64,000 nucleotides of DNA, from IMG/VR virus record IMGVR_UViG_3300009514_000006, positions 61,615 to 125,614 of that record; one strand, 5' to 3'. Shown here piece by piece: positions 31,212-64,000 of the stretch. A model generated the notes under the pieces. That model saw only the letters and a program-made list of their open reading frames with translations. It made no database searches and was not told the DNA's origin. The stretch's first letter is position 1, and each line of letters starts with the position of its first letter. The position numbers and the translations under genes are program-made. Source of the DNA: a virus.

Positions 31212-31475
31212 CTAGATTACAATTCGGCTATTATTACTATCGCTCTCACTGAGGAGTGTGCGTATCTCAGGGTGCGGAGTAAAATGAGAATAATGGTTGC
31301 CCAAAGCTTGGCGCCATTGTTGGACCCGTTGTCGGGTTACCTGAAACTCCTGTGCAATCTGGGGCATTGCTACGCCCTTCTGAAAGGAGTCTATTAGGTA
31401 ATTGAATTTCTCAAGACCGTGCTTTTTAATCAAATTACGAGCCAATTTACTTGGCTTAGTTCCCTTTTGCATCAT
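31212..31475 (-). CDS. Small helix-turn-helix DNA-binding protein
   Basis: An 87-residue protein. Residues about 33-59 read as a helix-turn-helix (GVAMPQIAQEFQVTRQRVQQ, then WRQALG), as in sigma-4-like or resolvase-type HTH proteins. A basic N-terminal helix (KLARNLIKKHGLEKF) precedes it. It is transcribed toward the head operon from a promoter whose +1 coincides with the A of the ATG. A second ATG follows at once. It lies beside the iteron and hairpin region, so it could be the switch regulator, an origin-binding protein or, less likely, a small terminase subunit. Confidence 0.7.
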   Translation of the reverse strand: MMQKGTKPSKLARNLIKKHGLEKFNYLIDSFQKGVAMPQIAQEFQVTRQRVQQWRQALGNHYSHFTPHPEIRTLLSESDSNNSRIVI

Positions 31476-31481
31476 GAAAGC

Positions 31482-31510
31482 ACCATATCAAAAGCAAATT
31501 GCCATGTCAA
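31482..31510 (-). promoter_or_regulatory. Promoter of the HTH gene, leaderless geometry
   Basis: On the minus strand, TTGACA (31510-31505), a 17-bp spacer and TATGGT (31487-31482). Six nt follow, and the next base (31475) is the A of ATG. The mRNA would lack a 5' untranslated region, and no ribosome site can be placed. Confidence 0.75.
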
Positions 31511-31596
31511 CGTAAATATGTAGGACAGTGTCAGATAAGTCCTACACCAATTTGCCCTAATGACTAATCTTGGTCGCACACTTATTTACGAAATTA

Positions 31597-31789
31597 CTTG
31601 ACAACGAAGAATCACCCGAAAACCTCAACAATATCAACTAATAGTAAAATACTTAAAATAGTTCTTGACAACGACTTTTCCAAAAAACCCAATGATATTC
31701 GCAAATAACAACGATTTGACACAGCAAGAGCAAAAGGGTGCCGAATTTCTCCATGATAACATTGGGTTGCATTTTTCACTTGACAACCA
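31597..31789. repeat. TTGACAAC iteron-like repeats in AT-rich DNA
   Basis: The 11-bp word CTTGACAACGA occurs at 31597-31607 and 31664-31674, and CTTGACAACCA at 31779-31789. A partial copy (AACGATTTGACA) lies at about 31710-31721. None has a convincing -10 box 16-18 bp downstream except possibly the last. The shared bases extend beyond TTGACA, so a protein-binding iteron is more likely than a promoter. The only frame here (81 codons, minus) has unusual composition and no ribosome site. The gene-free stretch runs from 31476 to 32160. Confidence 0.6.
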
Positions 31790-31912
31790 AAAAAACGTGT
31801 GTTTTATCATTAGGGGGTGAAAGGGGTGTGAGTGATGGGCTGTGGTGAAACAAGTGGTAAAGAAGTTTCTATATAGCACACATTCACTACTTTACTAAAA
31901 AACTCACCCTAT

Positions 31913-32024
31913 GAAGCGAAGCTTCTGGACTGGCTGATAAGCCAGTCAATGTGAATAAGTGAAACTGTGGTTCACTTATGTGTTTTTAAGCAGAGATCTG
32001 TCTTGAGATCAAGACAAGAGATCT
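31913..32024. other. Series of four hairpins between two transcription units
   Basis: Four inverted repeats lie in a row. They are GAAGC-GAA-GCTTC (31913-31925), GACTGGCT-GATA-AGCCAGTC (31928-31947), a 9-bp ATAAGTGAA stem with 7-nt loop (31955-31979), and TGTCTTGA-GA-TCAAGACA (31999-32016) with outer AGATC pairing (31994-32024). The first contains GCGAAGC, a word known to form an unusually stable single-stranded DNA mini-hairpin. Confidence 0.75.
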
Positions 32025-32032
32025 GAGCCACT

Positions 32033-32143
32033 AAAAACCCCTCAGCCCCTTTGATTACCCTCAGCCCATATGAGGACTAGGCGCCTTCGGCGCCCAGATG
32101 TGCTTCGCACATCAGGGAATTAGTTATTCTGTTTTCTGAGGGG
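32033..32143 (-). terminator. Branched terminator-like structure with two alternative 3' arms
   Basis: On the minus strand, CCCCTCAG (32143-32136) can pair with CTGAGGGG (32045-32038), which is followed by TTTTT (32037-32033). It can also pair with a nearer CTGAGGG (32064-32058) that has no T-tract. Inside the loop sit two adjacent perfect hairpins with GAA loops: GATGTGC stem (32113-32097) and GGCGCC stem (32094-32080). Together they could terminate transcription after the 32161 stop, or form a switching structured RNA. Confidence 0.6.
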
Positions 32144-32160
32144 GAGTGGGTGCCTAGGAG

Positions 32161-32421
32161 CTAGACAACTTCAACTGTGGCCCACACACCCGTTGGGGTG
32201 AAGATCAGGGCGCAGTCGTCTTCATCAATGACTAAGTCTCCTACTGAGACTCTTTTAGGTCTAAGTAGAACAGCTTCGCTGTGGTCATCCGGTTTAGCTA
32301 TTTTAGTGGTAATTTGAGACTTATAAGACGCCTCAATAGTTCCAACTTCTGTGTAGTCGTCTAAGGAGACTTTACTGGGAGCACGGGGCTCACCTTTTCT
32401 GTAGAATACTGTGTAGATCAT
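32161..32421 (-). CDS. Small protein cotranscribed with primase
   Basis: An 86-residue beta-rich protein (IYTVFYRKGEPRAPSK, EAVLLRPKRVSVGDLVIDED, ALIFTPTGVWATVEVV). The ATG overlaps the primase stop by 4 bp, so the two are translationally coupled. No domain is recognised. A role as a primase partner or replication accessory protein is suggested only by context. Confidence 0.65.
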   Translation of the reverse strand: MIYTVFYRKGEPRAPSKVSLDDYTEVGTIEASYKSQITTKIAKPDDHSEAVLLRPKRVSVGDLVIDEDDCALIFTPTGVWATVEVV

Positions 32422-33443
32422 TTGATTTTCCTTTGTAGCTTCCAGAGCCAGTAGTCTCCAGAGTCTGTGTAGATTGCTGTGTCAAGAGTTTCCTTGAGCC
32501 AAGGTTTAAGCTCTGGATATTGTAGCACAAGTCCGGGGTCTAGCTTCAGCTTACTTTCCTCTGGGAAGGGAATTATGTATACTGAAAATAGGTGGGCTAA
32601 CTTGTCTGCTGCGTCTTGAATGTCCTGATGGGCGTCAGGGTCCCAAGCAAAGTATACATTCTTGATTTTGTGCTTCTGAAGTAGTTCGATTTGGCTTGTA
32701 GATATTTTCTTACCAAAAGTGCACACAGCCGGGACCCCTACACTCAGGTACCCTAGTGCGTCGAAGACTCCCTCTACGATTACTATTGTGTCTTGTTCTT
32801 TGAGTTGGTCTAGGGGCCACAGCCACTGTTTGATATTCTCTGAGGATACGTACTTTGGGTCCTTATCAACTATACAGCGCCCCTGATAGGCCACTGTCAG
32901 CCCGAAATAATTGACGGGGAAAAGAACGTAGGGACCAGAGTGTCCTCTTAGGGAGCCAACCATAGCTAACTGGCGCTCCTTTATAATCTCTTCGCTGAGA
33001 CCTCTTTTTAGGAGGTAGTTGTACGCGCGGGTGCCGGTAACACCCTCGAAAGGTTCCGTCTGGGGCAGAGAGACTGTATCTATAGGTTCGGGTGCATCTA
33101 ATGTTTTATCTGGCTTAATTTTGTCTTGAACAGCACTTTCAAACTCGTTCTCCTTTTTCGCTGGAGACACAGTCTGGGCTAGTTCTATTTTAATGTCATT
33201 AAGGTGGCGACCACTAACTTCGGCCATCAGCCTACAGATGTCTCTGATGCCCTTCCCGAACCCACACCTCTGGCAATAGAACAATTTTTTCTCTACGCTA
33301 ACATAGAGTTTGCTCTTATCATTCAGGCATACGGGGCACACCCTTATTCGTATTTCTCCATCATTACGAAAGGTTATCTCCGTGTAGTCATTTAACCAGG
33401 ACTCTAAATCTAGGTCTTCTAATGCTTCTTCTAACTTAGCCAT
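32418..33443 (-). CDS. DnaG-type primase (zinc finger plus TOPRIM)
   Basis: A 341-residue primase. The N-terminal CHC2-like zinc ribbon has Cys36, Cys39, Cys57 and Cys60 (CPVC...CQRC). The middle (GTRAYNYLLKRGLSEEIIKE, VLFPVNYFGLTVAYQGR) matches the RNA-polymerase core of DnaG. The TOPRIM part carries 'IVIVEGVFDALGYLS' (Glu) and 'NVYFAWDPDAHQDI' (Asp-x-Asp). No helicase domain is fused, so a separate helicase must exist. It makes primers for phage DNA synthesis. It lies next to the AT-rich hairpin region, which supports an origin there. No clear ribosome site precedes the ATG. Confidence 0.9.
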   Translation of the reverse strand: MAKLEEALEDLDLESWLNDYTEITFRNDGEIRIRVCPVCLNDKSKLYVSVEKKLFYCQRCGFGKGIRDICRLMAEVSGRHLNDIKIELAQTVSPAKKENEFESAVQDKIKPDKTLDAPEPIDTVSLPQTEPFEGVTGTRAYNYLLKRGLSEEIIKERQLAMVGSLRGHSGPYVLFPVNYFGLTVAYQGRCIVDKDPKYVSSENIKQWLWPLDQLKEQDTIVIVEGVFDALGYLSVGVPAVCTFGKKISTSQIELLQKHKIKNVYFAWDPDAHQDIQDAADKLAHLFSVYIIPFPEESKLKLDPGLVLQYPELKPWLKETLDTAIYTDSGDYWLWKLQRKIK

Positions 33444-53147: not shown

Positions 53148-53362
53148 TATTTAGTGTTCTTAAGGTTCTTTAGGCAGGATAGGAATATTTGGTTCGTTAC
53201 ATCCACGGCCTGGTCGATTAGACTTTCTGTGTTAGTAACAAACTGTTGTTTGCTGCTTTCTGAATAGTTATCTAGCTGATTATCTTTAAGTTCCCACAGT
53301 ATGTTCTCTATGTTCCTGTGGGCTTTCTTAGCCTTCTCTTTTAGGTCGTATATGTCACTCAT
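53147..53362 (-). CDS. Small helical protein (71 aa)
   Basis: A 71-residue coiled-coil-type protein (KEKAKKAHRNIENILWELKD, NTESLIDQAVDVTNQIF). It is coupled to both neighbours through overlaps (TAATG at 53147, 8 bp at 53355). Function unknown. Confidence 0.5.
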   Translation of the reverse strand: MSDIYDLKEKAKKAHRNIENILWELKDNQLDNYSESSKQQFVTNTESLIDQAVDVTNQIFLSCLKNLKNTK

Positions 53363-53543
53363 TGGGTTTAATGCCTCTTTCGTGCTTCATCAACCATTGA
53401 AGTGCTTCTAGATGTGCTCTACTAGTTTCTATCTGGTCCAACAGGGCGGCTTCTATTTCTTCTATTCGCTTTTGTTGCTTCTTAATTTTCTCTTCTAGCT
53501 CAAACATTCTGGCCGATAGAATGTTTGCGGTTAAGTTGTCCAT
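53355..53543 (-). CDS. Small coiled-coil protein (62 aa)
   Basis: A 62-residue protein with a strong coiled coil (ARMFELEEKIKKQQKRIEEI). No other feature. The 53147 and 53355 proteins could form a hetero-coil, but this is only suggested by adjacency. Confidence 0.5.
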   Translation of the reverse strand: MDNLTANILSARMFELEEKIKKQQKRIEEIEAALLDQIETSRAHLEALQWLMKHERGIKPNE

Positions 53544-61054: not shown

Positions 61055-61420
61055 CTACTCTGTTTCGTTTGCTTCGACAAGATCAAAGTTCTTAGCTATC
61101 CCTGATAGTTTCTTTGACCAGGTTGCTGGCGGGTCTGTGTCGTGCATATCCTGCAAAGCAGTGAGTAGTTCCAGTGCCTCTTCTGGCAAACCTGACTTTT
61201 CCATTACTCTTGGATAGTGTTTAAACAGCTCATCAACACCCATTCCAATTTCTTCATCGAATGCCTTTTTGTAGTATTGGTCTGGAATCAAATACCCAAC
61301 AGGACATTTTCTGCCTCTCTGTCCTCGATAGGCACATAAGCCAGATTCTTTTTGTGACCTTTTGTTTTGCTCAAGTAAGTGTTTTTTCACTAAATCAAAT
61401 ATTTGTTGATTGGTTAGCAC
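61055..61420 (-). CDS. Conserved phage protein with CAYRG...CPVGYLIPD motif
   Basis: A 121-residue protein from a GTG start inside the end of the upstream gene. It has 'LCAYRGQRGRKCPVGYLIPD' and 'QYYKKAFDEE', a motif I associate with small phage and prophage proteins of unknown role. The rest is helical (LPEEALELLTALQDMHDTDP). Two Cys of the motif may bind a metal or form a turn. Confidence 0.6.
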   Translation of the reverse strand: MLTNQQIFDLVKKHLLEQNKRSQKESGLCAYRGQRGRKCPVGYLIPDQYYKKAFDEEIGMGVDELFKHYPRVMEKSGLPEEALELLTALQDMHDTDPPATWSKKLSGIAKNFDLVEANETE

Positions 61421-61832
61421 TAATTTGCTCCTGGTACTTGTCCCGATCTCGTTCCCACTCCCATTTAGCTATCTGTAGCACAGTGGGGGTAAATTTCTCC
61501 CCGTTTAGGTACCACTCCTTGTATCCGTTTGAGTACTCAACAGCGGGACCGTCTTCCCGATGTAGCTTCCCCTTTAGACACCACGCCTTGTGCCCGTTTG
61601 GGTGCTCAAAAGCGGGACCGTCTTCCCTGTGTCGCTTCCCGTTTAGGCACCACTCCTTGTATCCGTCGGGGTTCTCAACAGCGGGACCGTCTTCCCGATG
61701 TAGCTTCCCGTTTAGGTACCAAGCCTTGTCCCCGTTTGAGTACTCAATAGCGGGACCGTCTTCCCGATGTAGCTTCCCGTTTAGGTACCACGCCTTGGTC
61801 CCGTTTGGGCGCTCGATGAGTTTAGGTTGCAC
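61395..61832 (-). CDS. HRxDGPA-repeat protein (145 aa)
   Basis: A 145-residue protein of five tandem 22-residue repeats of the form 'G-x-K-x-WY/CL-NGK-LHREDGPA-x-E'. It ends with 'EKFTPTVLQIAKWEWERDRD' and 'KYQEQISA'. The GTG start (61832) lies inside the end of the neighbouring copy, where the same 'EQISA' codons carry the CAGGAG ribosome site. The 66-bp DNA repeats are nearly identical. Function unknown. Confidence 0.75.
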   Translation of the reverse strand: MQPKLIERPNGTKAWYLNGKLHREDGPAIEYSNGDKAWYLNGKLHREDGPAVENPDGYKEWCLNGKRHREDGPAFEHPNGHKAWCLKGKLHREDGPAVEYSNGYKEWYLNGEKFTPTVLQIAKWEWERDRDKYQEQISANQSTNI

Positions 61833-62265
61833 TAATTTGCTCCTGGTACTTGTCCCGATCTCGCACCCACTCCCATTTAGCTACCTGTAGCACAGTGGGG
61901 GTAAATCTATTACCGTTTAGGTACCACTCCTTGTATCCGTTTGAGTACTCAACAGCGGGACCGTCTTCCCGATGTAGCTCCCCATTTAGCCACCACTCCT
62001 TGTATCCGTCTGGGTGCTCAAAAGCGGGACCGTCTTCCCGATGTAGCTCCCCGTTTAGGCACCAAGCCTTGTTCCCGTTTGAGTACTCAATAGCGGGACC
62101 GTCTTCCCGATGTAGCTTCCCGTTTAGCCACCACTCCTTGTTCCCGTTTGAGTACTCAACAGCGGGACCGTCTTCCCTGTGTCGCTCCCCATTTAGCCAC
62201 CACTCCTTGGTCCCGTCTGGGTGCTCGGTGAGTTTAGGTCTATTAGTTCTCTTTTTGAAGCCCAT
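61822..62265 (-). CDS. HRxDGPA-repeat protein (147 aa)
   Basis: A 147-residue close relative of the 61395-61832 protein. It has five repeats such as 'NGERHREDGPAVEYSNG' and 'NGELHREDGPAFEHPDG', a basic N-terminus (MGFKKRTNRPKLTEHPDG) and the shared ending 'KYQEQISA'. It is the first of three family members. High identity of the 66-bp units, including silent sites, indicates recent duplication or conversion. The ribosome site is GGATGA. Confidence 0.75.
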   Translation of the reverse strand: MGFKKRTNRPKLTEHPDGTKEWWLNGERHREDGPAVEYSNGNKEWWLNGKLHREDGPAIEYSNGNKAWCLNGELHREDGPAFEHPDGYKEWWLNGELHREDGPAVEYSNGYKEWYLNGNRFTPTVLQVAKWEWVRDRDKYQEQISAT

Positions 62266-63244: not shown

Positions 63245-63666
63245 AACCAACCTTGTACCAAACAACCCTTTCGCTGACAAGGGAAAACTCTGGAAAAATA
63301 TTTTCTCCCTCTCCCCCTTTGTCAATTAAAATTCTCCCCCTTCTCCCCCTTCTCCCCCTTCTCCCCCCGTCGTATTTTTTGCTGAGGGTAGTTTGTACCA
63401 CAGGCCATATATCCCCTTTTCTCATGATTGGTTTTCAGTTCTCGGGTTTTAGTTCTCGGGGTTCAGTCGGCGTTTAACATTGGTTAAAATGCGTTTTACA
63501 GGGGTTTAGCAGGGGTATACTATCGTTCTTTACATGTAAAGCGTTTGTGGCATAATACTATTTTATTTTATTTGTAAAGGGCTTTTTATCAGATATCGTT
63601 GGTGAGGAGCCTAGGTGGGACAAAACCGCACATTCGCCTACGTGCTTATTTGTTCAGGTAGGCAAG
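63245..63666. other. Non-coding stretch with CT-rich repeat and palindrome
   Basis: No convincing gene. It holds four tandem 9-bp TTCTCCCCC units (63332-63367), two copies of 'AGTTCTCGGG' (about 63437-63461), and a perfect 14-bp palindrome CTTTACATGTAAAG (63528-63541). An AT-rich tract follows (63555-63582). The region may contain the promoter for the minus-strand early genes, but no clean -35/-10 pair was found. Confidence 0.6.
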
Positions 63667-64000
63667 TGTCCCACATGTAGCATGGTGTAGCATGGTGTCC
63701 CACATGTAGTCCAGTGTAGCATGGTGTCCCACATGTAGCATGGTGTAGCATGGTGTCCCACATGTAGCATGGTGTAGCATGGTGTCCCACATGTAGCATG
63801 GTGTAGCATGGTGTCCCACATGTAGTCCAGTGTAGCCAGGTGTAGTCCAGTGTAGCCAGGTGTAGTCCAGTGTAGCCAGGTGTAGTCCAGTGTAGTCCGG
63901 TGGCCCACCACGGCCCACCACGGCCCACCACGGCCCACCACGGCCCACCACGGCCCACCACGGCCCACCACGGCCCACCACGGCCCACCACGGCCCACCA
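63667..64000. repeat. Graded 10-bp tandem repeat array running off the window
   Basis: Five 29-bp units (tgtcccaca + 10 + 10) cover 63667-63811, with one internal substitution of a 10-mer. Then 20-bp units (tgtagtccag + tgtagccagg) run to 63880, a transition follows at 63881-63910, and ten near-identical 10-mers (cggcccacca) reach the last base. Successive 10-mers differ by one or a few bases. Frames of 110-117 codons on the minus strand are by-products of the period. Confidence 0.95.

Follow-up and report, generated by a model that had tools for sequence, protein, structure and literature searches.

The 685-bp gap at positions 31476-32160 of the window is, in a reading to which we give a little less than even confidence, a control region at an operon boundary that probably carries a small structured RNA gene. 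The window is the whole 64,000-base stretch analysed, running from base 61615 to the final base of a virus record 125,614 bases long. The gap is a real feature and unusual for its genome, and what it offers, on the strength of two phages, is a candidate for a new but ordinary sort of phage RNA.

By its terminase, portal, head, tail and baseplate families the phage is tailed and myovirus-like, and it has genes for a DNA polymerase, a DnaB-like helicase and a primase of its own. It has no close named phage: the best primase matches are ~28% identical, and no DNA similarity to named phages was found. A related head protein occurs in 77 uncultured contigs at up to 76% identity. DNA comparison with 39 related records returned chance matches only, and a head-protein search of bacterial and archaeal genomes did not identify the host. 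The primase, the HTH protein and the protein after it also served as queries in a search for more relatives. At the end of the record (window 63662-64000) there are tandem arrays of 29-bp and 10-bp units, then 9.9 perfect copies of GGCCCACCAC that run to the final base, and the assembly probably stops there because of this tandem repeat. Window 61412-62239 holds a two-copy 412-bp repeat whose unit contains, reversed, the left-end sequence of the record (bases 1-100), TTACCCCCACTGTGCTACAGGTAGCTAAATGGGAGTGG.

The gap (41% GC) lies between the HTH ORF and an 86-aa ORF, both on the minus strand, and separates two operons of that same strand at a sharp break in the gene map. The genes on its two sides are as follows.

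31212-31475, minus strand: HTH protein of 87 aa, phrog_686, with a weak HTH_23 match; kept beside the 86-aa ORF in four relatives
32161-32421, minus strand: 86-aa ORF of unknown function, which adjoins the HTH gene in four relatives too
32418-33443, minus strand: DNA primase, phrog_47

The initial annotation had described these 685 bp as free of genes, and the gap is real; ORFs inside it were examined by codon use. The longest, an 81-aa ORF with a GTG start on the minus strand, has non-coding codon use and was rejected as a gene. A 42-aa ORF (MIFANNNDLTQQEQ...) at 31692-31820 on the plus strand has gene-like codon use, and no homologue of it was found in the related loci or in named phages. 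The gap had also been placed beside the primase; the primase is indeed where it was said to be, but the 86-aa ORF intervenes between it and the gap.

In the arrangement we propose, the gap would control the boundary between two minus-strand operons, that of the primase and an HTH-led one that continues into portal and head genes. A minus-strand promoter in the gap would drive the HTH gene, and the gap's hairpins could terminate transcription of the primase operon. On the plus strand, TTGACA-19-TATCAT would start a transcript near 31817 whose fold would be a long 5' arm followed by three hairpins; it would end at a U-run at 31983-31987, or alternatively continue into a closed hairpin domain at 32038-32150. 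This plus-strand RNA might be a regulator, or a convergent transcript that damps read-through of the primase operon. We infer its production, its start and end, and its regulatory or convergent role from the features, statistics and comparison given below. The features of the left part of the gap are these.

31482-31510, minus strand: promoter-like site of the HTH gene, TTGACA-17-TATGGT, with TG preceding the -10 and the start codon 6 bp past the -10
31597-31607, plus strand: word 1, CTTGACAACGA, with no good -10 after it
31664-31674, plus strand: word 2, CTTGACAACGA, with no good -10 after it
31779-31789, plus strand: word 3, CTTGACAACCA, with TATCAT following 19 bp after its TTGACA
31780-31810, plus strand: promoter-like site TTGACA-19-TATCAT, with 11/12 matches to consensus
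31814-31987, plus strand: candidate small structured RNA, comprising a 5' arm (31814-31910), three hairpins and a U-run

The RNA gene is suggested by an intergenic promoter-like site matching consensus at 11/12 positions, a fold that starts right after it, and a 5' arm biased towards one strand. No intergenic site in the 125.6-kb record is better than the plus-strand one, and only one other equals it. Promoter-like sites in the record are 6.6 times denser between genes than within them, so the host polymerase probably uses this sigma-70-type consensus. As expected of a small RNA gene, a promoter, identified by consensus match only, lies directly upstream of the fold, which begins just past the plus-strand -10 (31812-31990, z -4.67 against shuffled sequence). 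Its first 100 nt, the 5' arm, have a folding energy of -32.7 kcal/mol on plus against -20.2 on minus; this far greater stability suggests that plus is the RNA strand in the 5' arm, while the 3' hairpins of the candidate have no strand preference. The U-run at 31983-31987 follows the third, A+T-rich hairpin and scores below the threshold of the terminator scan; an A+T-rich stem before a U-run makes a poor terminator. A TTGACA lies ~35-37 bp ahead of the annotated HTH start codon both here (31482-31510) and in a relative (L241:4224-4285); the mRNA of the HTH gene may therefore lack a leader or begin further inside. The idea that TTGAC is a conserved operator ahead of the HTH gene was tested and rejected: it occurs in the last 80 nt in four of five phages, and four other 5-mers do at least as well.

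The closest known systems are those small RNA genes of phages and bacteria that have their own sigma-70-type promoter and terminator. The gap resembles them in its promoter-like site, a stable multi-hairpin fold at the predicted start, a U-run and a place between operons. The candidate differs from known examples in its weak terminator, in having only one relative with the same anatomy, and in matching no known family. At gathering score Rfam 15 finds no family in the window, a permissive threshold gives only chance-level matches in the gap region, and no tRNA was found. The spacer also counts against an RNA gene, since the promoter optimum is 17 bp and 19 bp is longer, as does the array of hairpins to the right, which is strand-neutral.

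That array begins within the candidate RNA and extends well beyond it.

31913-31925: hairpin GAAGC-GAA-GCTTC, with GCGAAGC on the plus strand
31928-31947: hairpin GACTGGCT-GATA-AGCCAGTC
31955-31979: hairpin ATAAGTGAA-ACTGTGG-TTCACTTAT, then GTGTTTTT on the plus strand, weakly terminator-like
31982-32038: long hairpin GTTTTTA...TAAAAAC, with inner TGTCTTG-AGAT-CAAGACA
32038-32150: closed hairpin domain (CCCCTCAG/CTGAGGGG), enclosing both adjacent TTC-loop hairpins
32080-32094: hairpin GGCGCC-TTC-GGCGCC
32097-32113: hairpin GATGTGC-TTC-GCACATC, with GCGAAGC on the minus strand

At least six hairpins had been reported in 31913-32113, and there are in fact seven with perfect stems of at least 5 bp. 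Their number far exceeds chance: the average over 1000 shuffled versions of the segment is 1.1, and seven is never reached. The loops, too, are as first described, with GAA or TTC in three hairpins and GCGAAGC in two of these. GCGAAGC hairpins are very stable in DNA, and the d(GCGAAGC) mini-hairpin word that recurs in two hairpins of the gap is also found elsewhere in the window, there inside genes; it is mildly frequent overall (9 occurrences against 4.5 expected, with 4 of 100 shuffles reaching 9). Short-loop hairpins suit RNA and DNA equally, and GCGAAGC fits hairpins of either kind. The array at 31880-32160 folds about equally on the two strands (RNA z -5.6 on plus and -5.4 on minus; DNA z -6.4), and few windows of the record are as over-stable. 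Another of the record's top windows lies outside the window analysed here, in a gap at record 53165-53407 (L004:13165-13407, minus strand; fold z -4.87), where a near-perfect inverted repeat of ~20 nt (GCCTTTACGGCACCTTTCC) surrounds ~75 nt, TTAGCTTAGCTTAG-like direct repeats flank the inverted repeat, and a gene starts just downstream.

The same hairpins could serve as plain operon punctuation, a reading that invokes neither a separate RNA nor an origin and that we consider unlikely, though it fares best among the alternatives. The hairpins would then be terminators and mRNA-stabilising stems, and the A+T-rich half would hold the HTH promoter and its operators. The gap's place between two same-strand operons fits such a role, as do the promoter-like site of the HTH gene, a T-run (31902-31897) after the last hairpin on the minus strand, and a clear terminator at the same place in one relative, G004. 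The minus-strand fold contains a stem CCCCCUCAG/CUGAGGGG followed by UUUUUAG; on that strand TTTTTAG follows the closing stem of the 32038-32150 domain, which may thus terminate the primase operon. A terminator nevertheless needs less than seven hairpins and 250 strongly folding bases, and punctuation leaves the plus-strand promoter-like site and the plus-strand 5' arm unaccounted for.

In four related records (G004, G005, G006 and L241) the gene order is likewise primase, 86-aa ORF and HTH gene, and the protein that follows these is shared as well, but the distance from the 86-aa ORF to the HTH gene is only 24 bp in G005, 31 bp in G006 and 61 bp in L241. The conservation of the hairpins that had been offered as a check is thus not borne out: with 24-61 bp in three of the four relatives that have the same genes, the gap and its hairpins are no conserved part of the locus. 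Between the primase and the 86-aa homologue, L095 (5414-6493) and L241 (2711-3871) encode a protein with P-loop ATPase-like motifs, which is absent from that place here, in G004 and in G006.

G004 is the only relative with a large gap, of 382 bp, and the RNA-gene reading draws support from the same anatomy there. Its gap carries TTGACA-19-TATAAT, the sole 12/12 site in its 147 kb, together with an RNA fold of z -5.2, a clear intrinsic terminator and two short-loop hairpins in tandem, the only such pair in the G004 record. It counts against an RNA gene that these two phages are the only ones to show the anatomy, and that they do so in opposite orientations relative to the genes, the unit in G004 being oriented with them and the unit here against them. 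Homology of the two gaps is only a suggestion; their alignment is non-significant, 20 and 37 of 300 shuffles being equally good, and no alignable homologue was found. We also set aside a motif, TTTAAGCANAGRTCTNTNTTGA, that is shared with the G004 gap and with no other viral contig: it comes from the two gaps themselves, which do not align significantly.

The initial annotation had read the region as a replication origin built on iterons and A+T-rich DNA. The hairpin array, the module boundary and a switch in AT skew speak for that reading, while the unphased words and the missing gap in three of four relatives speak against it. The three CTTGACAAC(G/C)A words are present as claimed, in the plus strand throughout, at 31597, 31664 and 31779; the A+T-richness is likewise confirmed, the left half of the gap having 36.8% GC against ~46% in the window. 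A+T-rich stretches are as usual for promoters as for origins. The repeats exceed chance only modestly: a 9-base word occurs three times with p = 0.013 in the shuffled gap and 0.023 in the shuffled left half, and 43 of 1252 windows of the record contain some 9-base word three times. Each CTTGACAAC word includes TTGACA, the sigma-70 -35 hexamer, which occurs in the gap again at 31716 (plus) and 31505-31510 (minus). The term iterons fits poorly, for the words are short (9-11 bp), match the -35 hexamer, and lie out of helical phase at uneven spacings of 67 and 115 bp (6.4 and 11.0 turns at 10.5 bp per turn). The best reading of them is as putative -35 boxes or binding sites of a regulator. In the iteron origins of plasmids and lambda (PMC5043065) the repeats are usually direct, phased with the helix and next to the A+T-rich element of their initiator. 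The gap is like such origins in having a repeated short word beside A+T-rich non-coding DNA, and unlike them in the length, spacing and hexamer match of its words. The PLE satellite of phage ICP1 has a non-coding replication region with several repeats as candidate initiator sites, which are semi-palindromic, are bound by a RepA_N initiator and were shown to be necessary (PMC7145576). The gap is similarly non-coding with several repeats.

Total GC skew, the check proposed for an origin, tracks gene strand and for that reason was not used as evidence, but strand-corrected AT skew at fourfold sites does switch near the gap. Among minus-strand genes it is -0.31 to the left of the gap and -0.05 to the right, with the gap as best change point (gene-level permutation p 0.01). 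When two forks are modelled as starting from a single point, the best fit falls at 92.5-92.7 kb of the record, at a distance of 0.4-0.6 kb from the gap, and the signs are those expected for an origin, with T and G excess on the leading strand. This switch is the strongest evidence for the earlier origin reading; it is compatible with an origin, not proof of one. Rotating the gene order gives 6/140 (p ~0.04), the right arm alone is non-significant (p 0.07), and the switch is confounded both with the gene-module boundary at the same place and with gene length (variance explained is 0.197 for the fork model, 0.166 for a plain module-boundary step and 0.16 for gene length alone). G004 and G005 have no AT-skew switch at the same gene junction.

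An origin here would have an initiator, the HTH protein or another, bind the repeated words while the A+T-rich half opens, with the hairpins acting in single-stranded DNA or as RNA primer and the primase loading nearby. The skew and the DNA fold favour it, but with the polymerase and DnaB-like helicase genes far off (~67-71 kb from the gap in the record), words that are not iteron-like and three of four relatives keeping the same genes and not the gap, we regard it as improbable; in those relatives an origin could lie elsewhere. Less probable still is a piece of inserted or decayed DNA of no present function, which would have entered long ago between the HTH gene and its 86-aa neighbour: gap lengths of 685, 382, 24, 31 and 61 bp in five phages mean that the stretch comes and goes, and the 42-aa ORF has a gene-like look and no homologue, but perfect stems should decay when not under selection, and promoter-like and hairpin features recur jointly in G004.

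Returning to the control region with an RNA gene, we propose, as an unlikely but specific extension, a previously undescribed phage RNA of ~175-340 nt that would sit at the boundary of the primase and HTH-portal operons in either orientation and regulate the switch between them, and that would belong to a group of uncultured myovirus-like phages. The phage group concerned is known solely from metagenomes. Should depth data place the start of replication at the gap, this would show that origins can come and go among relatives that keep their replication genes. If the RNA is made, these phages would encode a structured RNA just where one would expect the primase and virion operons to be controlled.
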